In this document: in pieces, positions 1,700 through 25,914 of the stretch
Position numbering within the stretch: position 1 is the stretch's first letter
Layout: every line of letters starts with the position of its first letter
Program-made: the position numbers and the translations under genes
Notes under the pieces: generated by a model
What the model saw: only the letters and a program-made list of their open reading frames with translations
Told to the model about the DNA's origin: nothing
The model's database searches: none
IMG/VR virus record: IMGVR_UViG_3300021365_000064
Location: 1 to 30,809 of that record
Origin: a virus
Length of the DNA: 30,809 nt
Strand: one strand, 5' to 3'

Positions 1700-3538
1700 T
1701 TATCCTATAGCTACTACTTTGATGAACAGGTTTGTATAGTTAGTAGTGCCAAGTAGTCCGTTGGTTCCTAAGTCCGGGTAGCCGTTTGCTAACTGTAAAG
1801 TAAAAGAATTGGAACTTAAAGTAGTAATACTGTAACCTGTATGTCCTGCTGCCGATGCACTAGCTATAGGCACTAATTGTGCGTTAGTATCACTAGCTGA
1901 TGAGTTAACATAAACAGCAACTGTTACATCTGTAGTTCCTAAGTTGTGAGTAATTGTGTGAGTACTAGCGTTTGCTACGGTTACAGAGTCTATGGAGTTT
2001 TGCCATCCTGTATTGTATTTAGAAACCGCACCTCCCGTACCACTACTTGCTGCTGTAATTCGTCCTTGTTGGTCTACTGTGATGTCAGCACTAGTATAAG
2101 CACCGGGTGTAACAGCAGTGTGAGCTAGTTTAGCACTTGTAACAGCGTCGTCGGCTATCGTAAGTGTAGTAGAACCTGTAACATCTCCTGTATGAGTAGC
2201 GTTAGTAACCTTCGCTGTATTAGCTGCAACAGAAGCATTATTAGAAACCTCAGCGTCAAAGTCAGATATAGTAGCAGCAGTTTGAGTACCTGTGTGATTA
2301 GCTCTGTTCTTTAAGTTAGAGTCTGTATCATTAGCTGTTGCACCTGCTGCAATACCTGCAAGCTTATTTTGTTCAGCGTCATCATACTCATTAGTGTTAG
2401 CGTTGCTTTCGTAAAGAGTCTTAACATCAGCAGCAGAAGGAGAAGCACTACCGTTAGCAGCAGCTGTAATCCTTCCTTGTGCATCTACTGTTAGATTAGT
2501 AGCAGTGTAAGAACCTGGAGTAACAGCAGTGTCAGCAAGCTTGTCAGCAGTTATAGCGTCATCATTGATCTTGTTTGTAGTGATAGCAGCATCAGAGATG
2601 TTAACTGTATTAATAGGACCACCTGCTGTACCTGTTGCTAAAGTTGTAGCAATCTGAGCATCTACATAAGTTTTGTTTGTAGCGTGACTACCACTAGCAG
2701 GGGAAATTAACCCTGTAACTTTATCAACGTTTTGAATATCATTTGTTTGCATATCCAAGTTACCTGACATCGAATCTCCACTCTTGTTAACTTGAAGAGC
2801 ATCTTGTTGGTCTACATAGCCTTTACGAGCAGAGTGATCACTACTAATAGGAGCACCTAAACCACTGACCATGTTACCACCCATAGCCAAGTCACCTGTC
2901 ATATTGTCACCTGCTTTGGTAACTTGTAGTGCGTCTTGACCGTCTACATAAGTCTTATTAGTAAGATCGTTACCAGCACTAGGAACAGCAGAGGAAGTAA
3001 CTTTATTAGAACCCATGTCCAAGTTACCAGTCATCGTATCCCCTGCTTCATCAACAAAAGTAGTATCTGCGTAGTTCTTAGTTACTGCATCTTGTGGGTT
3101 TGTAGGATCAGCTAGGTTTTTAATCTTGGCTAAATCGGCATCGTAGTGTCCATCAACAGGGTCTTTAGTCATCGTGTTCTTACCACTACCCTCTTCAATC
3201 TCTTCACTAAGATAAAGGTTGTGAAGGTAAGCACGATCTAGTTCTACCTCAGTAAGTACACTTCCATTCTCAAAGTCTACAAGAGCGGTGTCAGAAGCAC
3301 TATCTCTTTTGATCCTTATCCTGTCTCCAGTTGCTGGAGCAGTAACAAATATTATAGCAGCAGAAGGAGAAGTTTGGATTGTGTAGTGAGTAGTAACTGT
3401 TTGATCTACAAATTTACCACCAGTTAAAGCCACTGTATCAAGTTGTACTACAACGTGTGTGTCATCGAGATAAGGAAAAGGAAAAGCAAAGGAGGTAGTA
3501 GTATTATCCCCAGTGTAGTCTACGTATGTATTAGGCAT
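1700..3538 (-). CDS. Tail fibre protein (T7 gp17-like N-terminus)
   Basis: Receptor-binding fibre attached to the tail. The protein is 612 residues. Residues 1 to about 118 match the T7 tail-fibre N-terminal attachment domain (YVDYTGDNTTTSFAFPFPYL ... GDRIRIKRDSA ... VLTEVELDRAYLHNLYLSEE). Residues about 150-300 contain repeats of the form NKTYVD-QDALQVTKAGDNMTG-DLAMGGN. Residues about 315-500 contain a second repeat type (AVTPGSYTATNLTVDAQGRI and AVTPGAYTSADITVDQQGRI). The last 110 residues form a distinct, Thr/Ser/Val-rich tip. No intramolecular chaperone or enzyme motif is visible. It follows the gp16-like gene by 12 nt, with no clear Shine-Dalgarno sequence. Confidence 0.9.
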   Translation of the reverse strand: MPNTYVDYTGDNTTTSFAFPFPYLDDTHVVVQLDTVALTGGKFVDQTVTTHYTIQTSPSAAIIFVTAPATGDRIRIKRDSASDTALVDFENGSVLTEVELDRAYLHNLYLSEEIEEGSGKNTMTKDPVDGHYDADLAKIKNLADPTNPQDAVTKNYADTTFVDEAGDTMTGNLDMGSNKVTSSAVPSAGNDLTNKTYVDGQDALQVTKAGDNMTGDLAMGGNMVSGLGAPISSDHSARKGYVDQQDALQVNKSGDSMSGNLDMQTNDIQNVDKVTGLISPASGSHATNKTYVDAQIATTLATGTAGGPINTVNISDAAITTNKINDDAITADKLADTAVTPGSYTATNLTVDAQGRITAAANGSASPSAADVKTLYESNANTNEYDDAEQNKLAGIAAGATANDTDSNLKNRANHTGTQTAATISDFDAEVSNNASVAANTAKVTNATHTGDVTGSTTLTIADDAVTSAKLAHTAVTPGAYTSADITVDQQGRITAASSGTGGAVSKYNTGWQNSIDSVTVANASTHTITHNLGTTDVTVAVYVNSSASDTNAQLVPIASASAAGHTGYSITTLSSNSFTLQLANGYPDLGTNGLLGTTNYTNLFIKVVAIG

Positions 3539-3550
3539 GGTAATCTATTA

Positions 3551-6500
3551 TTAATTTGTTTGTTGTAAAAGTTCAAGCACATCTTCTTGTTGCATTCCAG
3601 CTCTTAAACCTGCTCTAGCTTGTGTTAACGAAGAGTATTGTGCGTTTAACTCAGGATACTCTCTAAGCACTTGTCTTCTAGCTTCTTTTCTGTACTTAGT
3701 TAGAACACTATTTAACTGCTGAATACGAGGGCTAGGAAGACCAGGTTCAGAGTCTGGTGATAACCTTTGGTAGTTCCTTGACTTTATAAGTTTGTTCAAT
3801 GTTTGTCTAAGAGAAAGACCACGAAGTTTAACAGTTTTTAATAACTCTAATTGTCTATCGTTTGCGGATTGTCCTTTATCGTTTTCATACTCTAACAAGT
3901 CTATCTGCCCACCTAAACTAGGAGGAGGGTTTCTAAAAGCATGATTCAAACTTGCCATCTCTGTTAGGATAGGATCATTCTTTTTAGTGGACAGTTGAAT
4001 AGGATTAATAAAACCTGTACCCATCCATTGTTCTGCTACATATTCCTCTCCCAATATATTACGTTTAGTATCTAAAGAACCACGCATACCTAGCTTACGT
4101 TTAACTGCGTCCATTACAGACCTTGTTTCTTTTATCGCTTGAGTATCGTAGTCGGCTGTTTGAGAAATTAAGTTAGGAACTAACGAACCTGCATAATTCC
4201 TACCTAACTTTTCTACATAACGATCAGGATCACCCAAAGCATCTGCCCACATTTGAATACCAGCTAAGTATGACTTGTTAGTAGCATTTCTTGTTAGAGC
4301 TAATACCATTGATGTTGATGCGTGTTCTAAAAGGGATTCATCAAAAGCCGCTTCCTCTCTTATCCCTGTTTCAACTAAATCTGCTACAACACCTAAAGGA
4401 GTAGCTAAAGGATCAAGTCGTTGATAACTGAAGTAAGTGTCTCCAATCTTAATACTGTAAGGTCTCCATCCTGTTGCCATTAGAGCTTCTTTTTCACGCT
4501 CATTACTAGGACCACCTCCAGTTATGTACTCTCTGTTGTTATAAGCTACATCGATTAAACCTCCAAAAGTAAGACCTGCTGTTACTACTTTACCTCTGGT
4601 TCTTGCTTTTAAGATAGGGTCTGTACTGTTGAACTCTGCAAATAACCGCTCACGCTCCTCTTTTAACACAGTAACAAAAGGAGTTCTTTCAAAAGCAAAC
4701 TTTAAGATATTAGTAGGAGTACGAACAAAAGGAACTACAAATCTCAAGTAAGGTATTTTGTTAGTGGCTTCTTGGATTACTTTACCTAATGTCTTGTCTT
4801 GTAACTCTTTAGTAAATGTTAAATACTGAGCTTCTTCCATTGAATACTGCATAAGTGCAGATGAATCAGGATTAAAGTTATCGTCCTTGTATTTGATGAT
4901 GAAATCAGATTTATCTTTTCCTTTAAGACCTTGCTTATCCGCTATCAAAGAAGCCTCTCTAACAAGACCTTCTTCAGACATCATACGTCCACCTTCAGTT
5001 ACTATTCCATCGATAGTTTTATTAATATGCCCAGCTAATGCTTTGGGATCACGAATACCTTGTTGAATGCCTGACATAGCTGCTTTCATTCTAGCAGCTC
5101 TACGATAAGCTAACTGTTTAAAGAACTCATCAGAAGTTAACAATAACCTACTAGGCAGTCTTATGTAACTAGCGTATTTGTCTATTGAATCTTTAGCCGA
5201 GTCTGAAACAATACCACCTATAGGGGATTCAGCTATACGTTGACCAGTAATAGAAGCACGTTGACCTTCCTCAAACGCACGATTTGATGGGTCTAGTAGA
5301 TTGTCTTGGTCTTTAAAAGCTTGTTTAGCAAACTTACCTGCTTCTTTAAACATCTCACTATCAGACCAAGACGCTATAACAGCTTTGACTACATCCATGT
5401 TTCCACTAGCTATACCACCAGCAACAGCCTCTAAAGTGGTCATTACCTGTGTCAACGCATTACCCATGATATTAACCATCTGCGTCTTAGGACCACTCAA
5501 TATAGAGTTCATCCAGTATTCAGTAGGCATATCTAGGAAATGTTTACCTTGTGCCTTTTTAGCAGTATTCAACAATCTAGCTAAACTACCGTCTAAGTCA
5601 TTAGGATCAATATGTTCTTTAACTAGCTTAACCATACGCTCTGGTTTCATGTTACCAGAGTTATTAACAAACTCGTTACGTATTCCTTCGATCTGAGTCT
5701 CCGCTTCGTTAAGACCTAACTTACGCTTTCCAAAACCTTCGTTTCTAGCTTGTAAAGTAATAGCAGTTTCTCTACCTATCCTACGATATACATCTGCTAC
5801 TGTTAATAGTTGTTGGAAAGCATTTTTCAATTTAGTAGTGGATACTGTACCTCCACCTGTTTGATCAAACTCTTTAACTATCTCACTGACATTCTGTATA
5901 AGTGCTTTACCTTGTTCTCTGTAAGATTGTTGAATTATACGAACATCACGCAATACTTTCTCAGCATCTTCTCCTTCTTTAGCTTGTGCTCTGACAGTTG
6001 TTTCGATTGCTTCATCTATATCTGTGACTGCATCTGTAACGGTTACTTTATCAGGATTAGCCTTATAGTATTGTTCTAGTATATCTTTGAGTACAACAAC
6101 ATCTCCGTCAGTCTCTAGTGCAAACTGTGGTAGTCTAGGTTTTACTCCACCTACCATGAGTGCTTCAGCAAACCCTCTAAACTTGTCAGGTATAGCACTA
6201 AGGAACTCATCCTCTTCTCCAGGCATCATTTCTAAACCTTTCCTACCTCTTTGAGAAGGAAGCTTCATCTCTGCAATCTCACCTACACGACTAACAATGT
6301 TATCAGCTAAGTCTGTGCTTACACCTCTACCAAAGAAACTTTTAACAGTATTAACAACCTTCTCCCACATTGTCATCTTAGGAGTGTATTGAATACCTTT
6401 GAGAGCTTGCTGTAGTTGAGGATCAGAGAATGCCATAGACATAAACTCTGCTGGGTTCTTTATCCAGTATAAGTCAGGTTCACCTTTAACTGTCGTTAGT

Positions 6501-6889
6501 TCACCTTTAGAAGCTATCTCATCACGCATAGCATCCGCTTTCTTAAACATACGGAACATCTCTGCAACAGGTTTAGGTAGAGATTTCTTTGATAATACTT
6601 TATCAATAGCTTTAGCTCTAGCAGCTACATCATTTACATCTATATTTTTAAATGCACTTGAGTCATAATATTTATTTACATTATCAACTGTTACAGCGTG
6701 AGTAGCTTCGTGTAGTAAATTATAGATTGGATTTTCTTTTACTGAAGACGATTGACCATCTAGAACAATTCTTCTCTTACCACTCTCATAGAAAGAACCT
6801 CGTTTTAAACCTGTAGGTACATCAGAAGCAAAAGACCTTTCTTCAAGCTTAGCGTCAATACCTGTGTCTTTCCTAGTGCTAACAGTTTT
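3551..6889 (-). CDS. gp16-like internal virion protein, C-terminal portion (reached by -1 frameshift)
   Basis: Second part of the large ejection protein. The frame is open from 6889 down to 3551 but has no ATG, GTG or TTG before ATG 6557-6559. An independent protein from 6559 would be 1002 residues. The 110 codons upstream still encode sensible protein: LKRGSFYESGKRRIVLDG, then LLHEATHAV (HExxH at 6698-6712). Just after the ATG comes YWIKNPAEFMSMAFSDPQLQ, whose Glu (6446-6448) is the likely third zinc ligand. The peptidase-like domain therefore spans the apparent start. Further on is IPYLRFVVPFVRTPTNILKF and TGWRPYSIKIGDTYFSY, of a type I recall in large internal proteins of marine podophages, and a charged helical C-terminus. 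Expression presumably needs the shift near 6868-6891. Confidence 0.85.
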   Translation of the reverse strand, partial: KTVSTRKDTGIDAKLEERSFASDVPTGLKRGSFYESGKRRIVLDGQSSSVKENPIYNLLHEATHAVTVDNVNKYYDSSAFKNIDVNDVAARAKAIDKVLSKKSLPKPVAEMFRMFKKADAMRDEIASKGELTTVKGEPDLYWIKNPAEFMSMAFSDPQLQQALKGIQYTPKMTMWEKVVNTVKSFFGRGVSTDLADNIVSRVGEIAEMKLPSQRGRKGLEMMPGEEDEFLSAIPDKFRGFAEALMVGGVKPRLPQFALETDGDVVVLKDILEQYYKANPDKVTVTDAVTDIDEAIETTVRAQAKEGEDAEKVLRDVRIIQQSYREQGKALIQNVSEIVKEFDQTGGGTVSTTKLKNAFQQLLTVADVYRRIGRETAITLQARNEGFGKRKLGLNEAETQIEGIRNEFVNNSGNMKPERMVKLVKEHIDPNDLDGSLARLLNTAKKAQGKHFLDMPTEYWMNSILSGPKTQMVNIMGNALTQVMTTLEAVAGGIASGNMDVVKAVIASWSDSEMFKEAGKFAKQAFKDQDNLLDPSNRAFEEGQRASITGQRIAESPIGGIVSDSAKDSIDKYASYIRLPSRLLLTSDEFFKQLAYRRAARMKAAMSGIQQGIRDPKALAGHINKTIDGIVTEGGRMMSEEGLVREASLIADKQGLKGKDKSDFIIKYKDDNFNPDSSALMQYSMEEAQYLTFTKELQDKTLGKVIQEATNKIPYLRFVVPFVRTPTNILKFAFERTPFVTVLKEERERLFAEFNSTDPILKARTRGKVVTAGLTFGGLIDVAYNNREYITGGGPSNEREKEALMATGWRPYSIKIGDTYFSYQRLDPLATPLGVVADLVETGIREEAAFDESLLEHASTSMVLALTRNATNKSYLAGIQMWADALGDPDRYVEKLGRNYAGSLVPNLISQTADYDTQAIKETRSVMDAVKRKLGMRGSLDTKRNILGEEYVAEQWMGTGFINPIQLSTKKNDPILTEMASLNHAFRNPPPSLGGQIDLLEYENDKGQSANDRQLELLKTVKLRGLSLRQTLNKLIKSRNYQRLSPDSEPGLPSPRIQQLNSVLTKYRKEARRQVLREYPELNAQYSSLTQARAGLRAGMQQEDVLELLQQTN

Positions 6890-6891
6890 TT
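6805..6891 (-). other. -1 frameshift window within the gp16-like gene
   Basis: The two frames overlap only here. On the minus strand the 5' limit is a run of six A (6886-6891, reading GTT AAA AAA CTG) and the 3' limit is the first-frame stop at 6805. Candidate slip points are the A6 run and GGA AAG ACA (6873-6866). A slip of AAG onto AAA at the second point gives the smooth protein join YSPIVKKLLALGK/DTGIDAKLEER. The classical X XXY YYZ heptamer is not in register with the first frame. It may be programmed frameshifting, a true mutation, or a sequence error. Confidence 0.7.
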
Positions 6892-8868
6892 AACAATAGG
6901 ACTATATTCACCTAAGTTTCCATTTGTTCTATCGAATAGGTCTTGGATAGCTTCACGTGCAGTCATTGGTTTCCCAGTCTGCATTCGACTAGAAACACCT
7001 TCTACTAATGTTTTATTGTAGAAGTCTTTCTTTAGTTCTGGTCCTATCTTACCTAGTTTAGAATCTAAATCAACAACACTTGTAGGGGATGGAAAAGCCT
7101 CCTCAAAGAAGTCAAAACCCATTTCTTTAAAAGCCTTGTCTATTTTATTAGCAATATCTTTAAGTTGTTTTTCACTATATCCAGCTGCAATAAGTTTCTT
7201 TTTTAGACCTCCTTTAATTCCCTCCGATTCATAAATGGACATAGGTGTTAATTTTTGTTGAAAATCCTCAAAAGTTACACCGTGGTTTTCAATTAAATCA
7301 ACAAACTCTTCTTCAGACCAAAGTAAAGACCAAGTATTTTCATCTAATTCGTTAGGTCCTCCCTCCATTCTAATGTTAAAAGCTTGGTCTTCTCTCTTTG
7401 CTGCTTGATGTACTTCATTTAAAGTGATGCCTGTCTCCTTCATTAACAGAGCTAAAGCTTTATTAGGAGATTCTGTTAGACCACTTGGTCCATTTGTCCA
7501 GTCCCCTATATCAAACAACTTCTCTGCGTTTGGTAAGTCTTCAATCGATTCAGCAATTTCTTCAGTTACTTCACCTGTATCAGGGTCAACCTTTTTAATG
7601 GGTTTTCCTATACCTAACGCACTATCAATTTTATCTGCCCACTTTTCTTTTTGCTCTTGTATTAAACCTTCGCTTGTTAAAGCTTGTGTAGTGGGAGCTT
7701 CTTCCGTTCTGTTAATAACTCTTGAGACATCAACCCATTCTTGATCACCTGCTTGTGCTAATTTATCTGTGGGTTTAAATACATTTGCATCCAATCTTTC
7801 TTGTACTTGTTGCCTATTAAAAGGACCGAATTGTTTACCGTCAGAATAAACATAAAAAGCTCTATCATCTCCAGGAGCAAAATCTACATCTGTTCTTTCT
7901 TTTGGTATTATACTAGCAGCATCTATTAACCTTTCAGGGTTTTGAGGATCAGATATTAATGTTCTAGTGCTTCCGCTTGGTAATTGATATTTCTTAATAA
8001 TCTTACCAGCTACATCTGTTTCACTGATTAATTGACCACCTGCTTGAATAGTTTCTGATTCTTCTTTTGTAAGTGTTATAGCAGCTGGAGAAGGTTCATC
8101 TAAATCAAAAGCACTATAATCTTGTGTTAAGTCTATCTCAAAACTTTCATCAGGGTCTCCACCTATTTCTCTAAAGTCCTCTTCAAATTCTTTCTGTGCT
8201 TGTTGGCGAGAAAGAAAAGATTCATCTTCTGTAACTTGACTGAGTTTAAATTCTTCACGAAAGGGTGTACCTGTATTTAAAGACTCAACACCTATATTGT
8301 TGACCTCATCTGCGGTCTTACCTTCTCCCTTACCTCGCCTCATGTTCTTCACCGCTTTTAACGATTTAATAAACACACCAGCGACAGCTTCAAGACCTAG
8401 ACCTTCCAACACATTCTTCATGCGTCCTTCTAACTCACCTTCATCTTCATCGTGTGCCAAGAACTCAGTAACTGGATTCTGTAGCTCGGGTACTTGTTGT
8501 ATAAGATTAGATAGTCTAGCTTCTTGTCCGTTAAAGAAAGTAAAATCAGTAGCAGCACCAGCAACAACACCTTTAGTAACAGTACCTGCTTTAGCTAATG
8601 CACCTGCTCTACCAGCAAGACCAAACAAAGGAATGAATCCTGTAGCAAACTGAGATATACCTTCTACAGCACCACCTGCCATAGTCTTAGAAGTACCCAG
8701 GAATCGAGTGTCGTAGTCAGGTAGTACATCAAAAGCTAAGTAGTCAGCTAAGTTGTACGCACCTTGAACTGCACCTTCTACACCTCTAAATGGAGCTGCA
8801 AGTATATCACCTGCGTAATCAAAAAAATCGTTATCGTTTTCCTTTAAAATATCTTCTGGTAATGCCAT
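6805..8868 (-). CDS. gp16-like internal virion protein, N-terminal portion, with GYF_2-like domain
   Basis: First frame of the ejection protein, 687 residues if it ends at its own stop. Residues 1-180 are Gly/Ala-rich with amphipathic or membrane-like helices (GGAVEGISQFATGFIPLFGL, AGTVTKGVVAGAATDF). The middle is acidic. Residues about 337-385 (FYVYSDGKQFGPFNRQQVQ ... DQEWVDVSRV) look like a GYF_2/DUF4339 domain. No lytic transglycosylase signature like that of T7 gp16 is visible. The last 20 residues (LSLKKGLLLLMYLQV) look like out-of-frame sequence; homology-like text continues in the -1 frame. A joined product would be about 1,770 residues, longer than T7 gp16 (1318). ATG at 8868 has no clear ribosome binding site. 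It lies 6 nt after the gp15-like gene, in T7 order. Confidence 0.85.
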   Translation of the reverse strand: MALPEDILKENDNDFFDYAGDILAAPFRGVEGAVQGAYNLADYLAFDVLPDYDTRFLGTSKTMAGGAVEGISQFATGFIPLFGLAGRAGALAKAGTVTKGVVAGAATDFTFFNGQEARLSNLIQQVPELQNPVTEFLAHDEDEGELEGRMKNVLEGLGLEAVAGVFIKSLKAVKNMRRGKGEGKTADEVNNIGVESLNTGTPFREEFKLSQVTEDESFLSRQQAQKEFEEDFREIGGDPDESFEIDLTQDYSAFDLDEPSPAAITLTKEESETIQAGGQLISETDVAGKIIKKYQLPSGSTRTLISDPQNPERLIDAASIIPKERTDVDFAPGDDRAFYVYSDGKQFGPFNRQQVQERLDANVFKPTDKLAQAGDQEWVDVSRVINRTEEAPTTQALTSEGLIQEQKEKWADKIDSALGIGKPIKKVDPDTGEVTEEIAESIEDLPNAEKLFDIGDWTNGPSGLTESPNKALALLMKETGITLNEVHQAAKREDQAFNIRMEGGPNELDENTWSLLWSEEEFVDLIENHGVTFEDFQQKLTPMSIYESEGIKGGLKKKLIAAGYSEKQLKDIANKIDKAFKEMGFDFFEEAFPSPTSVVDLDSKLGKIGPELKKDFYNKTLVEGVSSRMQTGKPMTAREAIQDLFDRTNGNLGEYSPIVKKLLALGKTQVLTLSLKKGLLLLMYLQV

Positions 8869-8874
8869 AGTGTT

Positions 8875-11019
8875 TTATTTTATAAGTCTTAATCTTTTAG
8901 CGAACTCTCTTTGATCTTCAACAAATTGTACGAGATCGTCTATACCTATTATACTTGCTTTGTCTTTTACTTCTTGGGGCATATCCTCATTACTTTTTAT
9001 ATCTTTAGCTTGTTCTAATGCAGCAACAGAAAGAAGCCTAGTTATTCTCGTTCTGCCTTCAAACTCAGTTGCATCAAACCTTACTGTTCCATCAGGTGAT
9101 AAACCTCTTTTAAGAGTGTCTGTGCTAGTAAAAGTTTCTAAGAATCCGTTAATGTTCATCCATTCACTAAGCATTCCTTCCTGTTCCTCTACAGTATAAC
9201 GAACACCAGGTTGTCCTTTAACAGTCATAGGGATAGCACCTGCCATAACTGATGTATCTGGAGTTGGTTCTACTTTCCAAGCGTTAGGGTCTAACTGTTC
9301 CGATAATATAGCAGAAGTTCTAATACCATATGACCTAAGAAATTCAAAAGATTTCTGTTTGTTCTCTGGTGTAGATTCTTTTGCTCCCAATACTTTTAAA
9401 GCTTTAGTTGTCTCTGCTAAGTCTCCTTTTTTCTTGTCGTATCCAAAAAGATTTTCTAGTGCTTTGTCGAACATACCTTTTTCAGGTGCTTCTAATCCCT
9501 CTTGTTTTGTTTCTAAATAATCTGCGACTCTTTTAGAGTCGTTATCTTCTTTAGTTTTTTTAACGGTACGATCTTTAAGTTGCTTCTGTAAGTCCTTGTA
9601 AAGTCGTTCATCTTCTTTCCTAGTAAACTCTAAAAGTTTATCTTGTCTTTCCTCGTTAGATAGAGGTGTCTGTGTAAGCTGTAGAGTATAATTATCTACA
9701 TTTGTTTGAAACTCAGCTAAAGAATTTGTCAGTAGATTAAAACCTTCTGCATCTCCAATTAAAACACCTTGTTGATCAAAATAACCTTTTACCTTCGTAG
9801 TGAAACCATCTCTTATAAATCCTAATCCAGGGGTGTTTCTTTTTAACTCTTCTTTTTTCCTTACATTAAAATTTACATTTGTAGCTAACCACGATTTAGC
9901 TTGGTCACTGAAGTTTACAAAAGCTTTTTTATTAACTGCAAGGTTAGCGTTTAAAGCGAATTTCTCTAAGTCGTTTTTGTTTGTGAATTTTTCACCCTCA
10001 TACTCTACTTCTTTAGCTCCACTGTTTAATTGATCGTGTGCTATCTTAAAATTAATAAGCGTATTCTCTGCTAATTCATCCCCTTCATCCTCTTCTTGAC
10101 CTTCAAATATTTCAGCAGCTTTATTTATGACTCTTTCGTATTCTAAATACTCATCATCATTCATTTTAGCGTTACCAAACTTCAAGTTTTCTGCTGCCCA
10201 ATTTAAAAATCCATCTGCTCTATCTTCATTGCCACTAGCAGCTAGTTTTCTAATAACAGAAGTAAAGACAGCTCGTTGCTCTTTCGGTGCATAAGCATTT
10301 AAATTTCCCCAGTCATCAGCGAAGGAGTTAAGAGTGTCTAAGTCATAGATACCTGCTCTAGCTTCATCATCTAAACCTCCTGTTATATTTCTTACTGTTT
10401 CAAAAAGAGCAGAACTAGTAGAGAAAGCTAATTCTTCTTTAGCTATGGCTGACTGTCTTACTTCAAAGTTTGTTACAAGCGGTTGTATCTGTGGGTTTAT
10501 CGCTTTTTGTAAACCTTGCTGTGCAATAACAGAACCTGCTAATCCAGGGTTATTTTGTATATACTCATCTCTTACTTTATTAATAATGTCAGCACCACCG
10601 TCAGGATCGTCTTCTAAAGGGTTAGCTAATCGTTTATTGATCTCAACCATCAAATCCCTACCAGCTAACTTGCCTATCGCTTCTATCTTCCTCTTCTGAT
10701 TAATAGGAGAAGTAAGCCAACTCATAGCCCCTTTTCTTACTTGCTTATCAAACTCTCCTTCTGTCTTTTGGAGCATCGCTTGAATCTCTTCAGGACTCTT
10801 CCTTGATAACTCATCTTCAAATTGTTCTGCTTCTATATCAGCTACCTGTGTGTACTGCTGTAAGATAGGATTAACCTGTGACAAAGCATCAGCAAGGTCC
10901 ATCAACTTATTCCTACCAGCTCTACGCTGACCTACACTGTATTGACCTGCTCTTTGAATAGTAGGTTGAATGCCTGGAACTGCGTCACCTAACCCTTGTA
11001 CTTGTACTCGTTCTGCCAT
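8875..11019 (-). CDS. Internal virion protein, gp15-like
   Basis: A 714-residue, mostly helical and charged protein with no membrane segment; T7 gp15 is 747. It starts AERVQVQGLGDAVPGIQPTI and AGQYSVGQRRAGRNKLMDLA. Its assignment rests on size, helical composition and position between the gp14-like and gp16-like genes. In T7, gp15 is part of the inner core that leaves the capsid and forms the periplasmic part of the ejection channel. The start ATG at 11019 overlaps the gp14 stop (TAATG), with GTAGGAG just upstream, a good ribosome binding site. Clear motif evidence is lacking. Confidence 0.78.
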   Translation of the reverse strand: MAERVQVQGLGDAVPGIQPTIQRAGQYSVGQRRAGRNKLMDLADALSQVNPILQQYTQVADIEAEQFEDELSRKSPEEIQAMLQKTEGEFDKQVRKGAMSWLTSPINQKRKIEAIGKLAGRDLMVEINKRLANPLEDDPDGGADIINKVRDEYIQNNPGLAGSVIAQQGLQKAINPQIQPLVTNFEVRQSAIAKEELAFSTSSALFETVRNITGGLDDEARAGIYDLDTLNSFADDWGNLNAYAPKEQRAVFTSVIRKLAASGNEDRADGFLNWAAENLKFGNAKMNDDEYLEYERVINKAAEIFEGQEEDEGDELAENTLINFKIAHDQLNSGAKEVEYEGEKFTNKNDLEKFALNANLAVNKKAFVNFSDQAKSWLATNVNFNVRKKEELKRNTPGLGFIRDGFTTKVKGYFDQQGVLIGDAEGFNLLTNSLAEFQTNVDNYTLQLTQTPLSNEERQDKLLEFTRKEDERLYKDLQKQLKDRTVKKTKEDNDSKRVADYLETKQEGLEAPEKGMFDKALENLFGYDKKKGDLAETTKALKVLGAKESTPENKQKSFEFLRSYGIRTSAILSEQLDPNAWKVEPTPDTSVMAGAIPMTVKGQPGVRYTVEEQEGMLSEWMNINGFLETFTSTDTLKRGLSPDGTVRFDATEFEGRTRITRLLSVAALEQAKDIKSNEDMPQEVKDKASIIGIDDLVQFVEDQREFAKRLRLIK

Positions 11020-11690
11020 TATCTTCTCCTACCTGTCATTGCTTGTGTATAACTCTGGGATGATGTAGTTCCTGTTGATGATGATCCCATCCTACTACTA
11101 ATGCCTTGACCTGCTGCGTATCCACTAAGTCCACCACTAACAGCTTGTAACCCTGATACTAATAAACTCGGTCTACTGATAGGTTGTTGAATCCCTATAA
11201 GTCTTTGTTGAGAAGCTAGTCCAGCTTGTTCTAATCCTAGCTGTGTGCCTACTCCTGTTAACTCTTGTTGTCTTAAAGTTGCTGCTCTATACCCTGCTTC
11301 CTGTCTAGTATAGTCATCCATTAAAGCAGTAACACTAGCACCTGCGACACCTGCTTCACCTGCTGAAACTCTCGCTCTACCTAAAGCTTCTCTAGATTTC
11401 CTGCTGACTTGTTCTAATTCCCTAGCAGTAGCTTCTTGTTGTTGAGCTTGTTGCATACGGATAGAGGACTGCTCTTGTAATGCTCTTTGACGCTCCGCTG
11501 CTGCTGACTGTGCTTGATACGCTGCTTGTGCTTTAGCTTGTTGCCTTTGCCCAGCATAACTCATTAAAGGTGAAGCTATACCTGCTACGGTTGATGCTCC
11601 TATAGTACCTAAAGCAACCGCTGACATACCAGCTGCTGCTGACTGTCCTACAATAGCTGTTCCTATAGTTGCTGATATTGGATCACACAT
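11019..11690 (-). CDS. Internal virion protein, gp14-like
   Basis: A 223-residue protein (T7 gp14 is 196). It begins MCDPISATIGTAIVG with Ala/Gly-rich hydrophobic segments to about residue 45, followed by a Gln/Ala/Arg-rich helix (QRQQAKAQAAYQAQSAAAER) and then EALGRARVSAGEAGVAGAS, a stretch I associate with gp14-type proteins of T7-like phages. The C-terminus is Gly/Ser-rich. In T7, gp14 is ejected first and inserts into the outer membrane as part of the DNA conduit. The ribosome binding site AGAGGAAG precedes ATG 11690. Confidence 0.88.
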   Translation of the reverse strand: MCDPISATIGTAIVGQSAAAGMSAVALGTIGASTVAGIASPLMSYAGQRQQAKAQAAYQAQSAAAERQRALQEQSSIRMQQAQQQEATARELEQVSRKSREALGRARVSAGEAGVAGASVTALMDDYTRQEAGYRAATLRQQELTGVGTQLGLEQAGLASQQRLIGIQQPISRPSLLVSGLQAVSGGLSGYAAGQGISSRMGSSSTGTTSSQSYTQAMTGRRR

Positions 11691-11691
11691 A

Positions 11692-12132
11692 TTACTTCCT
11701 CTCTATCTTAAATGACTTATAACCAGGGATATTGCAATCCTCAAAACTAGCACCCAACCATTTTAACCATCTCATACTCAGCGTGTTAGCTTCCATAATG
11801 TAATTTGTTAAGTAGTCAAAGTCTCCCATCAAATCATCTATCCACATCTGTGAATCCTTAACAAACTTCTTCTTTATCTTATAAAAATTCCTTGTACCTA
11901 GCAACCAGCAAATCCCTATGTTTCCTCTAGGACTGACTCCAAAGCAAGCTAACAATCCATCTTGATCTGTCTTGACGCTATAGCACTTACTACTTGATTC
12001 AAATGATCCGTACACAGCATCTCTAGGGTGGTGCATTAGACCGATACATTCCATCATATCTTCTTCTCGTAAGTCATCATATAACAAAGGAGCGTCTTCA
12101 AGTGCTTGTGCTTTCTCTACTTTAACCTCCAT
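11692..12132 (-). CDS. gp13-like protein (internal virion protein A / GNAT-like fold)
   Basis: A 146-residue protein from ATG 12132; T7 gp13 is 138. The start is chosen because AAGGAG lies 8 nt upstream, whereas the longer frame from 12165 runs further into gene 12. Motifs: VEVEKA-type start, GLLACFGVSPRGNIGICWLL in the middle, FYKIKKKFVKDSQMWIDDL, then ANTLSMRWLKWLGASF near the C-terminus. The last stretch, ending in a helix plus LGA, is typical of gp13/DUF2833 proteins and of acetyltransferase folds. T7 gp13 is needed for internal core assembly although it is not found in mature virions. It overlaps the gene 12 stop by 11 nt. Confidence 0.82.
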   Translation of the reverse strand: MEVKVEKAQALEDAPLLYDDLREEDMMECIGLMHHPRDAVYGSFESSSKCYSVKTDQDGLLACFGVSPRGNIGICWLLGTRNFYKIKKKFVKDSQMWIDDLMGDFDYLTNYIMEANTLSMRWLKWLGASFEDCNIPGYKSFKIERK

Positions 12133-15100
12133 AACGTCTACTCCTTGATATAATAGTTGATTCAAACTCAGCAGATAACAGCTTCACTGGTAAAGCACTA
12201 GAAGATTTAATTTCGATAGTGGCATCATTAGGTTGAGCTTGTACAGCAAACTTAAAGAATCCAGTCTCAGGTGTGAATTTATTAAGGGTACTGACAGAGG
12301 CTAACAAACTTGGGTTGTAAGTGTAAGTGTATTTATCTCTAAATTTAGGTGTAACTTCTACGTTGAAGTGTCCAGTCTCTGAGTACTCAATGCTACCGTT
12401 ACGAATAGTTTGGAATGTATAATCAGAAGCAGATCGTCCACCTCTCTCTGTAGGTTGCTTTAAGTTCTGCTTAGAGAACCTGTATAGCATATCGTACTCG
12501 TACCCAATGAAGTAATCATACACACTTAAATACTCGTAACCTTGCTCGCTCCACACAGGTGCTGAATCCACTTCTACAGTAGGTTGCCAATAGTTAGTAT
12601 CTGTAGGGAGTATTGATGCAGAGGATGTATGTCCTTCAACACACTTATATAGTGAACCATTATAGTTAACATAATTAGCTAACTTACCATCAATTAAAAT
12701 CTCGATGTCATTAACAGAGTGAAGTGTTACTTCTTTCCTTGTTCCGTTCTTAGAGTAAATAGCCATGCCCTCTTTAAACAAGAAGCTATTCCTAAACCTC
12801 ATATAAGTAACATCAGTATAATTACTTCCGTCAAAGCTTTGGGGTGTTGTACTACTTAGCTTAGTATAGTTTATACTTTGTATATAATTAGTACTGCTGG
12901 TTTGTATTCTACCGTCTAACAATAAAGCATAGTCTCTATCTGTCTCGGCTAATCCATTCTCCATTGGTATCTTTTCTAAGTAAGTACCGTCACTATCTGT
13001 TGTGATAATATGCAAAGTAGATTCAATAAAGTGAAAACTTCTAACCTCTCTAGTAAAAGTAAAGGACATCCAGGAACTCTGTATCTTCTCTCGACCTTGC
13101 CAAAAGTACTTATATACAAACAACTTCTTATAATCTTGGTCAGTCTGTACAATAATCATGTTCTCTGATGCACTGCCTGCCATCCTGACTATATTAGAAG
13201 GGATGTACTTATTGATTTGTTCTGTTATCTCAGCTGCTCCGTAATTCTCTGTGTTGTTATCAACAGTGTACTCTAACAATCCTTCAAAGCTATTCCTTTT
13301 AAAGTTAAAGTAGATATGACTACTTAGTGCTAACGGTCTAATACTTTCTGATACATCGTACTCAGTAACTGGAGAGATAGTAACAGTCTTTGGAGTTAAC
13401 AAGTCTGCACCTCTTAACACAAACTGTGTCTTCGCAGAGAATAACATTAGCTTCTCTTGGAACGCTTGTGCGTATTTAAGTAAGCTGATCTTAGTGTGTG
13501 ATATTCCTACATCTATAGGAGCAGAGTCTAGTAACGATTGTGTTGTGGTCCTGAAGAAATTAAAGTATTCATCTGCTTCAGAGAACACTACAGAATCATC
13601 TGTCAATACTCCTAACCTGTTCTTAAAGAAGAAGATATCATTGATCTTATTACCTTTAAAAGAAGGAAGAGGGTTACTGTTGTCATCTCCTGAATCTCTA
13701 CCTTCCCAATCAACAACTTTTAAAGTAAAGCTTGTTATCTTACCTGTATCTTGGTCAGGGATTAGTCTAACAGGCATTGTATCTTGGTCTAAGGCATTAT
13801 CAATATATTGACTAGCACCTGTAGCAGAACCGTCTTGTGTCCACCCTACTGTTTCTATCCAACTACCTTCCCCGAAATCTTCGTTATCTTTAGTCTTAAA
13901 CTTAACATAGTAATCATCTTGCTCTAGCTCTGCATCTCCTATGACCTTAATCCTAAAACCATTATAACAACTAGCTGGTAAATCTGTAATGCTATCTACT
14001 TCTTTATAAATAGCACTTAGTCCTTGATTAGCTAGTCCATCAGTAACTCTTATTTGAAAATCTTTATCTAAAGCGTTCGTTACTTTGATTACACTTCCTT
14101 GACGCTCAATAGAAAAAGGAGTACTAGCAATTGTCGTATATACCCAATTAGCTGTATTAGCAGCGGTTGTTACCCTTGATACATAACTATCAAAAACATT
14201 TACATCAAACCATTGATTTCCAAAGTACACGCTCTTTATTAACTGTGTAACAGTGATCTGTAAATCAGCGGATGCTATAACACCTGCCGATGCAAAGTTA
14301 GCTCCTATGTGTGTCAAATTAACTCCAGTTATCGTACCGTTAGAGTCTATAACAGCTTCTCCTTTTGCAGTCTCTGCTGGACCTGACAACCCTGCTGATT
14401 GATTAATAGTTACTTCTACTTTATAACCAGTTATATAAGGATTAACAGGTTTAAGATAACCTACTCCTCCGTTAGGAGAGCTAATTGAAACTGTACTCAT
14501 CACATTAACAGTACCTGAAGGAAACCTAGTGTTTAAACAAGTTTCTAAATCTTTAGCTATATACTCTGTATCTGCGTGTTGACCTGCGTGAGTTCCAGTA
14601 CTCGGTCCGCTTATGTAAGTGGAAGGAGATGCTCCTGCTATATGAGTATATTCGTGATGATTATCTAAACTAGTATCAACAGGAACTAAAGCTCCGTCTA
14701 TATAAATACTGTACCCTTTTTCGTAGTCTCCTAGTTTAACAAATATTAAAGCTTCCTTTTCTAAAGGTTCTTGTAGCACTGATAGAGCACCTACCGTCTT
14801 AGTCTTATTAACTAGAAAGGTAGAGTCTGCTATGGTTAAAGCTGTAAGGTCCGTAAGAGGATTAGAAACAGAGACGTAAGTACCAGCGGTAGCATCTTCA
14901 ATAGTAATATCCATCTCACCAGCACTAATGTTATCTACTGTTAAGTCTCTTGCTTTTAATCCGTTAACAGAGTCATACGTAATAACATATTGATTCTGTT
15001 CATCTCTATCTACATAGTGACTAAATAAATTAGAGCTAATATTAGCACCTAATCCAGTATCATAAGAAAACCTAGAGTTAGGTCTTTTAACAAGTCCCTC

Positions 15101-15217
15101 TACTACAGTTGACCAAGCATTTATCTGCTCATCACACTGTCCAGGGTATCTTAAATTGTCAGGTTGTTGTGATACACCTTGGGCAAGGTTAGGAATACTG
15201 GTGTTAAGCAGTGGCAT
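12122..15217 (-). CDS. Tail tubular protein B, nozzle (gp12-like)
   Basis: A 1031-residue protein forming the distal tail nozzle; T7 gp12 is 794, so this one carries extra domains. The N-terminus LLNTSIPNLAQGVSQQPDNL, then GQCDEQINAWSTVVEGLVKR, is typical for this family. Central motifs include FFFKNRLGVLTDDSVVFSEA and EYFNFFRTTTQSLLDSAPID, also strong family signatures, and WQGREKIQSSWMSFTF follows. The extra length appears to lie in the first 400 residues, which contain Thr/Ser/Gly-rich beta segments. GACAGGTAAAG precedes ATG 15217. It lies 2 nt after the gp11-like gene. Confidence 0.95.
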   Translation of the reverse strand: MPLLNTSIPNLAQGVSQQPDNLRYPGQCDEQINAWSTVVEGLVKRPNSRFSYDTGLGANISSNLFSHYVDRDEQNQYVITYDSVNGLKARDLTVDNISAGEMDITIEDATAGTYVSVSNPLTDLTALTIADSTFLVNKTKTVGALSVLQEPLEKEALIFVKLGDYEKGYSIYIDGALVPVDTSLDNHHEYTHIAGASPSTYISGPSTGTHAGQHADTEYIAKDLETCLNTRFPSGTVNVMSTVSISSPNGGVGYLKPVNPYITGYKVEVTINQSAGLSGPAETAKGEAVIDSNGTITGVNLTHIGANFASAGVIASADLQITVTQLIKSVYFGNQWFDVNVFDSYVSRVTTAANTANWVYTTIASTPFSIERQGSVIKVTNALDKDFQIRVTDGLANQGLSAIYKEVDSITDLPASCYNGFRIKVIGDAELEQDDYYVKFKTKDNEDFGEGSWIETVGWTQDGSATGASQYIDNALDQDTMPVRLIPDQDTGKITSFTLKVVDWEGRDSGDDNSNPLPSFKGNKINDIFFFKNRLGVLTDDSVVFSEADEYFNFFRTTTQSLLDSAPIDVGISHTKISLLKYAQAFQEKLMLFSAKTQFVLRGADLLTPKTVTISPVTEYDVSESIRPLALSSHIYFNFKRNSFEGLLEYTVDNNTENYGAAEITEQINKYIPSNIVRMAGSASENMIIVQTDQDYKKLFVYKYFWQGREKIQSSWMSFTFTREVRSFHFIESTLHIITTDSDGTYLEKIPMENGLAETDRDYALLLDGRIQTSSTNYIQSINYTKLSSTTPQSFDGSNYTDVTYMRFRNSFLFKEGMAIYSKNGTRKEVTLHSVNDIEILIDGKLANYVNYNGSLYKCVEGHTSSASILPTDTNYWQPTVEVDSAPVWSEQGYEYLSVYDYFIGYEYDMLYRFSKQNLKQPTERGGRSASDYTFQTIRNGSIEYSETGHFNVEVTPKFRDKYTYTYNPSLLASVSTLNKFTPETGFFKFAVQAQPNDATIEIKSSSALPVKLLSAEFESTIISRSRRYGG

Positions 15218-15219
15218 CT

Positions 15220-15798
15220 TTACCTGTCAATTACTCTTAGTACGCTGTAGTTGTCAAAGATAGTTCTGTCTGCATTCTCAGAGTCACTTTCAATAGCTCT
15301 AGCTTTCGCTTCGATCTCATCTCTTAAAGCAAACCCTTCTATCTCTCGACTGCCTAAGAACCTAGCAGCAAAGATGCGAGCTGATTTAACAGCTATGTAA
15401 TGTCTAAATTGTTCAGGTAGTTCTTCAAACTCTAACTCAAAAGTAATAATAGCTTTTAAGTCTTTAGTCCAAGTATCCCTGTGGTTTTTTCTATCGTATA
15501 GCTTAGTACCTCTTTGTACAGGATCAGTGTCCGTGTTTAACTCAGGGTCTAAGTCTACTTTTAAAATGTTTGTAGGTAATGTAATCCGACTTGTAACAGA
15601 ATCAGGAACAAGTGGGTAATCGTATTCTGTATTGAAATGCCATCCTTCTGATTGGATAGCTTTACTTGTTTCTTCTAACGCATGGACTGCTTGTGTAACG
15701 GTTACAGGAACACTAGTTCCACTTAAAGTATTAACAGGTGATTCTCCTATTACAGAGATCATAATGTTTACCGCTTCCAGTTTAGTTGTCAGTGCCAT
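15220..15798 (-). CDS. Tail tubular protein A, adaptor (gp11-like)
   Basis: A 192-residue protein (T7 gp11 is 196) forming the ring between portal and nozzle. Motifs: MALTTKLEAVNIMISVIGES, PVNTLSGT, ALEETSKAIQSEGWHFNTEY, LPTNILKVD, KLYDRKNHRDTW and FEELPEQFRHYIAVKSAR, all usual for this family and in the usual order. ATG 15798 follows the capsid trailer hairpin and has no Shine-Dalgarno sequence in TTTATTTACAAGCT. Confidence 0.95.
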   Translation of the reverse strand: MALTTKLEAVNIMISVIGESPVNTLSGTSVPVTVTQAVHALEETSKAIQSEGWHFNTEYDYPLVPDSVTSRITLPTNILKVDLDPELNTDTDPVQRGTKLYDRKNHRDTWTKDLKAIITFELEFEELPEQFRHYIAVKSARIFAARFLGSREIEGFALRDEIEAKARAIESDSENADRTIFDNYSVLRVIDR

Positions 15799-15802
15799 AG
15801 CT

Positions 15803-15858
15803 TGTAAATAAAAATATCAGTGAAGGGAAGGGATTCCGCTACGCAGTCCCCCTCCCCA
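15803..15858 (-). terminator. Terminator-like hairpin after the capsid gene
   Basis: The only gap between the capsid gene and gp11 holds an 8-bp stem, 15849-15856 with 15825-15832. The minus-strand transcript reads GGGAGGGG, a 16-nt loop, then CCCUUCCC. All pairs form only in the minus-strand RNA, with one G-U; the opposite transcript has an A-C mismatch. A T-rich stretch ATATTTTTATTT follows but begins about 10 nt past the stem, so it is not a textbook intrinsic terminator. Its place matches T7 Tphi after gene 10. A partial terminator or RNA-processing site is also possible. Confidence 0.45.
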
Positions 15859-15873
15859 ACACCGAAGAGAGAA

Positions 15874-16935
15874 CTATTTCTGCAATTCAATAGCACACTC
15901 AGGACGGAGAACTCCGTGACCCATAGCATACTTTGCAACAAAAAGTGTTCCTTGACGCTCGATTTGATACTCGCTTTCAGTAGCAAGATCAAGAAGCTTC
16001 ACAGTTCCGACAGCAGCAGAATGAGAAACAACACCAAGAGTATTAGTGAAGTTACCATTATACCCAGCACCACCAGCTCCGAATACATCATTGCTAGATG
16101 CACCATCTCCAGTAGCAACAGCTGATAAATCAGTTGAAGGAATGTGATTAGATTTGTAGATAGTGATACCAGCTACTTGTGGGATTGATCCAGAAGCAAT
16201 GCTACCTACTCCTCCTACGTCTTTATTGACAGCAGAAGTAGAAATAGCCAACGCACCTGCACCACCTGTAATGAGCTTGTAATACTCCTGCGGACGAAGG
16301 ACTGCAAAACGACCGTCACTAGGAACGTCATTTTCGTCAAGCTTCTGAGCAGCAGTGAATAAAGCAGCTACAAGTTCTGCACCAGTAGGATCAGTATTAT
16401 CAGCATCATCAGTTGAATCAGCTCCGTCTCCCATTGCATTAGCAGAAACATCAAGAATACCACCAACTTTACCACCAGTAACAGCAGCAGATGTACGAGC
16501 AGCAGCGATAAAGGTTTTAGCTAGAGCAGTATCAAAACGAACTGCAAGTGCTTTACCTAACTCATTCGCGTAAACGGAACGAATATCGTAGTGATTCTTA
16601 ACGTCATCAATGTTAGCCAAGAAAGTAGAAGCAAGTAACATCTTATCGATGGTGATTACTTTCTCTGCCTTTTTGATGTCACTCAAGTATGAGTTTCCAC
16701 CGTCAGCGATGTTTTCGCCAGGTGTGTGGTAAGAAGCAGAAGCTACACCAGTAACTGGGAACTGAGCTGATTTACCGTTTTCGATTGTGCGGACAGTGTG
16801 TAAAGGTTTGAAGATGTTCGACTCCTCAAAAGTTTGTAAGATTTCTCCACTAAACTTCTTAAGAAACAAAGCATCGTCAGCACCAGCACTATTAATCTGT
16901 CCCACACGTGAGGGGGATGTATCTCCATTAGCCAT
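15874..16935 (-). CDS. Major capsid protein (gp10-like)
   Basis: A 353-residue HK97-fold shell protein; T7 gp10A is 344. Motifs: LFLKKFSGEILQTFEESNIF, RTIENGKSAQFPVTG, ADGGNSYLSDIKKAEKVITI, DKMLLASTFLANIDDVKNHY and RFAVLRPQEYYKLI, which are typical for T7-like capsids. It is flanked by the window's two real non-coding gaps. ATG 16935 follows an A/T-rich leader (AACAAACATATATT) without Shine-Dalgarno sequence, odd for what should be the most abundant product. The next stop is TAG at 15874; I see no obvious extended 10B-like form. Confidence 0.97.
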   Translation of the reverse strand: MANGDTSPSRVGQINSAGADDALFLKKFSGEILQTFEESNIFKPLHTVRTIENGKSAQFPVTGVASASYHTPGENIADGGNSYLSDIKKAEKVITIDKMLLASTFLANIDDVKNHYDIRSVYANELGKALAVRFDTALAKTFIAAARTSAAVTGGKVGGILDVSANAMGDGADSTDDADNTDPTGAELVAALFTAAQKLDENDVPSDGRFAVLRPQEYYKLITGGAGALAISTSAVNKDVGGVGSIASGSIPQVAGITIYKSNHIPSTDLSAVATGDGASSNDVFGAGGAGYNGNFTNTLGVVSHSAAVGTVKLLDLATESEYQIERQGTLFVAKYAMGHGVLRPECAIELQK

Positions 16936-17053
16936 AATATATGTTTGTTGTAATTGTTATTATTATTAGTATTTGTTTTTCGACTTTCGTTTGAACCTTT
17001 GATCGAGATTGTCCACCGCAGTGGGTCTTAACATTAGTACTACTAATTGTCTG
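16936..17053 (-). promoter_or_regulatory. Leader region of the capsid gene (inverted repeat plus UNCG hairpin)
   Basis: A 118-nt non-coding stretch, rare in this genome. It has an exact 7-bp inverted repeat ATTAGTA-N-TACTAAT at 17033-17047. Closer to the gene is a small hairpin CCAC-TGCG-GTGG (minus strand; 17013-17024) whose loop fits the stable C(UNCG)G type. Then comes an A/T-rich stretch up to the start codon. T7 has its strong phi10 promoter here. I infer a phage promoter and/or transcript-stabilising element; the promoter consensus of this polymerase is unknown. Confidence 0.4.
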
Positions 17054-17170
17054 TTAAAGTAAATTAAGTATTATAATTCCACCTAAACATAGAACAGTCA
17101 AGACAATAGCCTTCTCCTTCTTGCTCAAGTTATTATAAATTCTTATTAGTCTTTTTAATTGATTTCTCAT
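17054..17170 (-). CDS. Possible 38-residue membrane peptide
   Basis: A short frame from ATG 17170: MRNQLKRLIRIYNNLSKKEK, then one hydrophobic segment AIVLTVLCLGGIIILNLL to the stop. Charge distribution (basic N-terminus, hydrophobic C-terminus) is that of a small inner-membrane protein. It overlaps the end of the lipoprotein-like gene by 38 nt and lacks a good ribosome binding site. Without it the gap before the capsid gene would be about 200 nt. It could be a small lysis-related peptide or a chance frame. Confidence 0.38.
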   Translation of the reverse strand: MRNQLKRLIRIYNNLSKKEKAIVLTVLCLGGIIILNLL

Positions 17171-17582
17171 TATTATTAGATTTTTTCTGTACGTATCGGG
17201 TATAAAAGATAGGGACTATGTTCCATAGAATAACACCTACAAGACATAGTTTCAAGAAACCATATACTTCATCTAACATAGAATCAAAGAATCCGTTATC
17301 CATCTTCTCATCTAATTGTTGTTGTACAAGTTCCTGTACATCTCCTTCGGATATAGCTTTAACTTTTTTAGCTAATCCTTTGTTCTCCTCCATTAACTTA
17401 GCACCCTCTCCTAATCCCCATCCAAGGGCAGCACCACCAGCAGCAGGACCAGGACCACCAAGGCTACCAACAGTTGCCCCACCTACACTGCCTATTAAAG
17501 GATAAAAAGAAGCCTTGGAACATCCACCAAAAAGAACCAGAACCAACACTGGCAAGAAAAAAGATGGAGTCCAAGGCTTCAA
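17133..17582 (-). CDS. Lipoprotein-like, Gly-rich protein with C-terminal membrane segment, unknown function
   Basis: A 149-residue protein between scaffold and capsid genes. The start is TTG at 17582 (MKPWTPSFFLPVLVLVLF), a good secretion signal, followed by GGC at residues 19-21, which could be a lipobox although Phe at -3 is unusual. Residues about 27-60 are a glycine-zipper-like stretch (GSVGGATVGSLGGPGPAAGG). Residues about 60-95 are helical. Residues about 107-127 (FLKLCLVGVILWNIVPIFY) form a membrane segment. The tail is Asn/Lys-rich. The frame is continuous with the scaffold gene through a single TAG stop at 17598-17600. I recognise no family; an outer-membrane or lysis role is only a guess. 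Confidence 0.65.
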   Translation of the reverse strand: MKPWTPSFFLPVLVLVLFGGCSKASFYPLIGSVGGATVGSLGGPGPAAGGAALGWGLGEGAKLMEENKGLAKKVKAISEGDVQELVQQQLDEKMDNGFFDSMLDEVYGFLKLCLVGVILWNIVPIFYTRYVQKKSNNNEKSIKKTNKNL

Positions 17583-17597
17583 ACCTACAATAAAAGT

Positions 17598-18350
17598 CTA
17601 TATATTACTGACAGATATACGTCTGTCAATCTCTTCGTGATATGCTTTATCTCCACTCCTATATCTAGGATCAGATTGAGCACGAGCTAATTCCTGCATG
17701 GAACGAAAGGGCATAGTAGATGACTTGTTAACTGCTCCTTGTACTAGTCGAGGACTAACACCATTCTCTGCTTTAAATTGAGCGTACAATCCTTTAGTGG
17801 CTAACTTAGCTTGTTCAATTGTACCGTTCTGTACGATTTCATCAAAGGTATTTACCTCTTCAGGAGATAAGTTATTAGCTGCCCATTCTGCCATTTGATC
17901 CCAATTCCCATCAGCTACAGACTTGATGCTACCTTCTTCACTTTGCATAAGTGCCTGTTGACCAGCAGCATAGCTATCTACTATCTCCTTCGATATCCCA
18001 GCTTTAGCAAGATTCTCATAGGTCTCCTCAGATAGCTTACCATCATTTTGAAAGAACTCTTTAGAAGCTTCCACAACAATATTGTTACTATCCAAGTCTT
18101 CCTTCTGAGTGTCATCGGTTTCTTCTTGTACTTCAGATTCTTCCTCCTGTTCAACCCCTGCTCCCATTTTCTTTTCAAGTTCACTATAGGCACTAGCCAT
18201 GTCTTCAGCACTTTTAAACTTTTCTGGCAACCACTCAGGTCTATTATCTTCCGTCTGTTCTTCAGGTACTGCTTCAACAGACTCTTCTGATTCGGGGTCA
18301 ATCTCCTGTGGTGCTTTCTCATTTATCTCTACTCGGTGTAATTCAGCCAT
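17598..18350 (-). CDS. Capsid assembly scaffolding protein (gp9-like)
   Basis: A 250-residue, strongly acidic protein (T7 gp9 is 307) that guides prohead assembly and is then lost. The N-terminal third is rich in Glu (DPESEESVEAVPEEQTEDN). It contains PEWLPEKFKSAEDMASAYSE, a motif common in scaffolds of T7-like phages. Toward the end come SPRLVQGAVNKSS and FRSMQELARAQSDPRYRSGD with YHEEIDRRI, the usual C-terminal motif thought to contact the capsid protein. It lies 2 nt after the portal gene. AAGAAGAG lies upstream of ATG 18350. Confidence 0.93.
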   Translation of the reverse strand: MAELHRVEINEKAPQEIDPESEESVEAVPEEQTEDNRPEWLPEKFKSAEDMASAYSELEKKMGAGVEQEEESEVQEETDDTQKEDLDSNNIVVEASKEFFQNDGKLSEETYENLAKAGISKEIVDSYAAGQQALMQSEEGSIKSVADGNWDQMAEWAANNLSPEEVNTFDEIVQNGTIEQAKLATKGLYAQFKAENGVSPRLVQGAVNKSSTMPFRSMQELARAQSDPRYRSGDKAYHEEIDRRISVSNI

Positions 18351-21275: not shown

Positions 21276-21476
21276 TTAAGCAGGTTCAAATAATAATATT
21301 TCATTTAGTTCAGTAACTAAAGGTTCACTTAATTCTGTAAGTAAAGCTCCATCAATAACAGGAGTCTGAGGTGTATCAAATCCATACAAAGCACCAAAGA
21401 CAGGTCTGAGTAATTGATTAGGTATTGTTGTTATCTCGCTAGGTTTATCTAGCTGATCTGTGAAGGTGATAGACAT
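21276..21476 (-). CDS. Hypothetical protein, 66 residues
   Basis: A small acidic protein (MSITFTDQLDKPSEITTIPN ... ALLTELSEPLVTELNEILLF) with no membrane segment or known motif. Its ATG overlaps the stop of the gene before it (TAATG), so translation is probably coupled. It is 5 nt upstream of the LamG-like gene and may be a small structural or assembly partner of it; this is inferred from position only. Confidence 0.6.
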   Translation of the reverse strand: MSITFTDQLDKPSEITTIPNQLLRPVFGALYGFDTPQTPVIDGALLTELSEPLVTELNEILLFEPA

Positions 21477-21793
21477 TAAAGAGAGTCAGTAGAACCTGTT
21501 GCGTATACACTGTAAGTACCATCTGTTCTCGCTGATACATTACCTCTGATCTGTTCGTAGTGTCCGTGGTCATCTCTAACCATGACAGCACCGTCAGCTG
21601 TTACAGCTTCAGAGTGAATGACAAACCAAGCACCACCGATGTACGCTTCTATATCTACCGTACCTCCTGTGGTTACTGCGGAAGAAGCGATTACAAAGGT
21701 CCAACCCTTAGAACGCTCTACTGAGAATGAACTGCCAGCCCCTGTTGCAACAACAGATGATAGCAAAGTCTTTTTTGAGAGTGTGCGAAGCAT
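21476..21793 (-). CDS. Hypothetical beta-rich protein, probable virion component
   Basis: A 105-residue protein with many alternating Val/Thr/Ser/Gly residues. After a short basic start (MLRTLSKKTLLSSVVATGAG) come SFSVERSKGWTFVIASSAVT, VDIEAYIGGAWFVIHSEAVT and YEQIRGNVSARTDGTYSVYA. This pattern is that of a small beta-sandwich phage structural protein. No family recognised. It begins a short coupled group of two genes leading into the LamG-like gene. Confidence 0.62.
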   Translation of the reverse strand: MLRTLSKKTLLSSVVATGAGSSFSVERSKGWTFVIASSAVTTGGTVDIEAYIGGAWFVIHSEAVTADGAVMVRDDHGHYEQIRGNVSARTDGTYSVYATGSTDSL

Positions 21794-21816
21794 GATATTA
21801 TATAGTTATATTGTTA

Positions 21817-22023
21817 TTAAGAAGACATATAGACACCAGTACCACCAGATGATCCACCAAGTGTAGGTCTAGCAGAACGCTTTAACTGTGCTTGTGCTCC
21901 TACCTTCTTCTTCTTAGGCTGTGTTTGTCTAACAGTCTTAGATGCTTCAGCTACAGGAGGAGGTGGTGGAGGAGGAGCTGGAGGTGGAGGAGGTGGAGGA
22001 ATATCGGGTGCTGACATACACAT
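21817..22023 (-). CDS. Proline-rich small protein, possible gp7.3-like tail assembly protein
   Basis: A 68-residue protein with two runs of seven prolines split by one Ala (about residues 9-23), then a Lys-rich middle (QTQPKKKKVGAQAQLKRS) and a Gly/Ser end (GGSSGGTGVYMSS). The order Lys-rich then Ser/Gly-rich end recalls T7 gp7.3, which also lies before the portal gene and takes part in tail assembly; I also recall proline-run proteins of this kind in other marine podophages. The homology is weak because of low complexity. Confidence 0.6.
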   Translation of the reverse strand: MCMSAPDIPPPPPPPAPPPPPPPVAEASKTVRQTQPKKKKVGAQAQLKRSARPTLGGSSGGTGVYMSS

Positions 22024-22025
22024 GG

Positions 22026-25910: not shown

Positions 25911-25914
25911 ATTT

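Follow-up and report, generated by a model that had tools for sequence, protein, structure and literature searches.

The two overlapping frames of the gp16-like ejection protein in the genome analysed here very probably belong to one ordinary gene, from which a single base is missing at positions 6866-6871 through error or recent mutation, without any recoding. The analysed stretch of DNA (the window) is a 30,809-bp IMG/VR virus record from a T7-like podovirus, the source phage being marine, and its main genes lie on the minus strand. These encode RNA polymerase, a Gp2.5-like protein, primase/helicase and DNA polymerase, as well as the head-tail adaptor, major head protein, tail proteins, internal virion protein and tail fibre. 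The gp16-like gene occupies the position typical of its family, between the gp14- and gp15-like genes and the tail fibre gene downstream of it (1700-3538, minus strand). The gp14-like internal virion protein (11019-11690, minus strand) was recognised through PHROG 805. The adjoining 714-aa gene (8875-11019, minus strand) was placed at the gp15 position by gene order, its product having no PHROG match.

Both frames carry family similarity. The frame at 6805-8868 (minus strand), the N-terminal part of the protein, matches the internal virion protein family PHROG 6651 (E = 2.5e-10). The frame at 3551-6889 (minus strand), which supplies the remainder with the HExxH region and ∼880 conserved C-terminal residues, matches the same family more strongly (E = 5.9e-42) and also PHROG 2206, virion RNA polymerase, through its peptidase-like region (E = 7.3e-7). 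The N-terminal lytic transglycosylase of the T7 type, described as phage-specific rather than universal, had no Pfam match either in the window or among the four intact relatives searched.

The initial annotation had read these frames as a single gp16-like gene with a −1 offset, and this description holds. Counted from its ATG, the first frame encodes 687 aa; the second comprises 1,112 codons from stop to stop, its first ATG, GTG or TTG lying only at 6557-6559, and the two overlap by 85 bases in the −1 register. The final ∼20 residues of the 687-aa frame (QVLTLSLKKGLLLLMYLQV) do not follow the reading frame of any relative, the register being lost after about residue 667. Conversely, the 110 codons ahead of the ATG at 6557-6559, which had been proposed to encode genuine protein with part of a peptidase, form a strongly conserved segment that includes LLHEATHAVT (HExxH). 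Because the ORFs of relatives run consecutively through both window frames, with 46-94% protein identity beside the join, the split of what would be one gene is, on this comparison, far beyond chance. In relatives LLALG leads straight into the TGIDAK segment, which places the join at GGA-AAG-ACA (6866-6873), the smoother of the two joins originally considered, and the offset itself at 6866-6871, where the window is one base short of all of them. The other candidate, slippage at the A6 run at 6886-6891, was rejected, since the relatives put the join at GGA/K. As had been suggested, a peptidase-like region spans the join: this putative cargo region (6245-7080, minus strand) is cut by the break, which falls ∼50 residues ahead of the HExxH motif and within the conserved block around it.

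Viral contigs searched at the protein level yielded 79, 19 and 18 loci, partly overlapping. In 17 of 17 distinct contigs, some of them close to each other and representing by our estimate about 10 independent lineages, the join is read in a single open frame and is one base longer than in the window. In each of the 17 the open frame extends between two stops or runs to the end of the contig. The extra base falls between LLALG and TGID, and L-G continues into TGIDA without interruption in each of the 15 aligned protein sequences. The N- and C-terminal parts of the gp16-like protein are held together in 47 distinct intact ORFs, and a scan of all fetched loci with the proteins of five relatives found no frame break among the 133 loci with gp16-like matches (some contigs being counted under more than one locus id). 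Applied to the window, the same five query proteins do detect its break, and the reverse scan with relatives' ORFs detects it too. Searching the whole viral collection with an exact pattern allowing three or four bases at the site identified three contigs, all with four, the unsplit length; no other viral contig with the short form was found. The window's own record was possibly left out of these scans. Of the relatives spanning the join, the closest (L073, L014 and L042) have near-identical flanks and the one additional base, at 93-95% nucleotide identity over 350 bases, which is the closest test of the join as no near-identical contig spanning it was found. A DNA search of the phage collection at blastn sensitivity gave no match; at the protein level phage isolates match the gp16-like protein in its C-terminal part only, and marine phages annotated with 'internal virion protein D' match that part at 24-29% identity.

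These comparisons bear directly on the proposal that the −1 shift is programmed and yields short and long forms for dosage control, neither part of which was upheld. A programmed −1 ribosomal frameshift in this lineage only, with a short product of 687 aa and a long one of ∼1,770 aa, would be compatible with the 85-base overlap in the −1 register and with the clean join through GGA-AAG-ACA, but we consider it highly improbable. The homologues checked are all unsplit (17/17) and conserve no slip site, the letters there differing freely among relatives (GGTAAAGAT, GGTAAGGAT, GGAGATGAG and GGAAAAGGA), and no other viral contig with the short form was found. There is no in-frame X_XXY_YYZ heptamer within 6805-6895, a stretch that ends at the first frame's stop, and the 100 nt downstream show no unusual stimulatory RNA structure (z = +0.74 against shuffles, pseudoknots being outside the model). 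A downstream stimulatory structure is not universal for bacterial −1 frameshifts. The window presents a one-base difference from all relatives and no recognisable slip signal. A related idea is a frameshift confined in origin to this lineage and either tolerated or exploited, with the phage making a truncated ejection protein alongside the full-length one; we regard it as having very little chance of being correct. Nor would a 687-aa form lack just the peptidase, as had been supposed, since the conserved ∼880-aa C-terminal part would be lost as well; a function for a short form without peptidase was rejected, relatives devoid of HExxH (L011, L016, L018 and L019) keeping the 880-aa C-terminus.

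The two frames might instead be a split gene whose halves are translated separately, with the second protein initiated at the ATG at 6557-6559, where a 1002-aa ORF does begin. However, in the downstream frame the 110 codons before this ATG are conserved and show purifying selection, and no relative was found split, making such an arrangement extremely unlikely.

We examined the age of the break by comparing the window with 2,982 stop-to-stop frames of relatives, each of at least 100 aa, an approach used in place of a noisy blastn list of indels that are not multiples of three. Consecutive matches in two frames were confined to ∼6840-6870, the sole break found in the 30.8 kb. Against the nearest relatives, dN/dS in segments of at least 79 codons was 0.19-0.37 upstream of the break and 0.14-0.44 downstream of it, the pre-ATG codons included; the value for the 20 overlap codons alone, which corresponds to 2-4 substitutions, was given no weight. 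Codons on either side are thus mostly under purifying selection. Since the downstream frame of 1,112 codons is without any stop and dN/dS stays within 0.14-0.44 to the left and right of the join, the break is either very recent or not real.

The preferred explanation is consequently an ordinary gp16-like ejection-protein gene of ∼1,780 codons in which one base missing at 6866-6871 of the assembled sequence would generate the two frames, the base having been lost either in sequencing or assembly or by a mutation that recently inactivated the gene in the genome sampled, and no recoding would occur at the join. This agrees with the fallback reading of the initial annotation, a one-base error or a pseudogene, the unsplit relatives all having one extra base. 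The T7 proteins gp14, gp15 and gp16 have been described as indispensable both for morphogenesis and for translocation of the genome (PMC8954989), a requirement that speaks for an error or a dead genome rather than a state that is maintained. Given that T7 cannot do without gp16 and that this gene is otherwise intact, we infer that loss during sequencing or assembly is more likely than a real lesion. The second branch of this explanation, a real inactivating frameshift that made the gene a pseudogene, either in the phage genome sampled or in an assembled minor strain, is possible though the less probable of the two. It stays in play because elsewhere the window agrees without gaps with contigs of more than 99% identity (11669-17857 with L108, 99.7% over 6.2 kb, 0 gaps; 21369-27128 with L263, 99.4% over 5.8 kb, 0 gaps), so that random indel errors are not obviously common, and nothing else in the window points to sequence of low quality. 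Against it stand the requirement for gp16 in T7 morphogenesis and DNA translocation (PMC8954989) and the downstream frame, which has not decayed further; a lasting lesion is unlikely. Closely similar phages, represented by the contigs L108 and L263, hence exist in other records, but no such contig was found to span the break.

Comparison of the relatives showed that the gp16-like protein has a fixed N-terminus of ∼190 aa and a fixed C-terminus of ∼880 aa, between which a middle of 149-834 aa is exchanged. This middle, at 6217-8300 (minus strand) in the window, is swapped even among closely related phages (L002, L006, L011, L014, L024, L029, L034, L072 and others). Most middles carry HExxH, in three kinds: HELWHGLS/HSLS, HE-A/G/S-THAVT and HE-I/M/L-LHGVT. 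One protein, that of L072 (L072:3494-5674), has two such regions, HESTHAVT and HEILHGVT. Short middles without HExxH, next to C-termini that are 80-94% identical, were seen in four relatives (L011:4593-5039, L016:1255-1779, L018:2086-2787 and L019:149-850), which, judged by sequence, would be group members that naturally lack the peptidase-like region. PHROG 2206 is matched by 13 of 43 relatives' middles; other domains among the 43 are ART-PolyVal (ADP-ribosyltransferase) in five, GYF_2 in two and LPD37 in one, and HTH also occurs. In the window the match to PHROG 2206 covers profile positions 2103-2248, and this similarity to the peptidase region of the N4 virion RNA polymerase, together with LLHEATHAVT, points to a putative zincin-like domain. 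For the block across the join, AlphaFold2 applied to an intact relative gave a low-confidence model (mean pLDDT 47). Judged by its domain content, the protein appears to be an injected, polyvalent protein of several domains for which a gp16-like ejection protein provides the framework.

Were the shift programmed, it would represent recoding-based dosage control of a gp16-type ejection protein, which to our knowledge has been described in no T7-like phage. The case instead cautions that one missing base in a metagenomic contig can mimic recoding, a matter that comparison with relatives decides at once. Its lasting yield is a gene family whose ejection proteins carry exchangeable enzymatic cargo in their middle.

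A known example of programmed −1 frameshifting in phages is T7 gene 10A/10B. The window shares with such systems only the −1 register of its two frames and differs from them in having no slippery heptamer, no unusual downstream structure and no conservation. The resemblance to T7 gp16 (internal virion protein D) is closer, comprising the gene order of gp14-like gene, gp15 position, gp16-like gene and tail fibre and the PHROG 6651 matches in both halves of the gene. In contrast to T7 gp16, the protein has an HExxH region and no Pfam lytic transglycosylase match, and at ∼1,780 aa it is larger than the gp16-like homologues of 609-1337 aa reported previously (PMC8954989). The N4-type virion polymerase contains an HEXXH zincin-like metallopeptidase at aa 2130-2448 (Iyer et al. 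2017, PMC5512222). The peptidase-like region of the window resembles polyvalent proteins of this type through its match to PHROG 2206 (2103-2248), and relatives of the gene carry ART-PolyVal and LPD37, as polyvalent proteins do. In contrast to the N4 type, however, the putative peptidase region sits within an ejection protein of the gp16 kind rather than in an RNA polymerase fusion.
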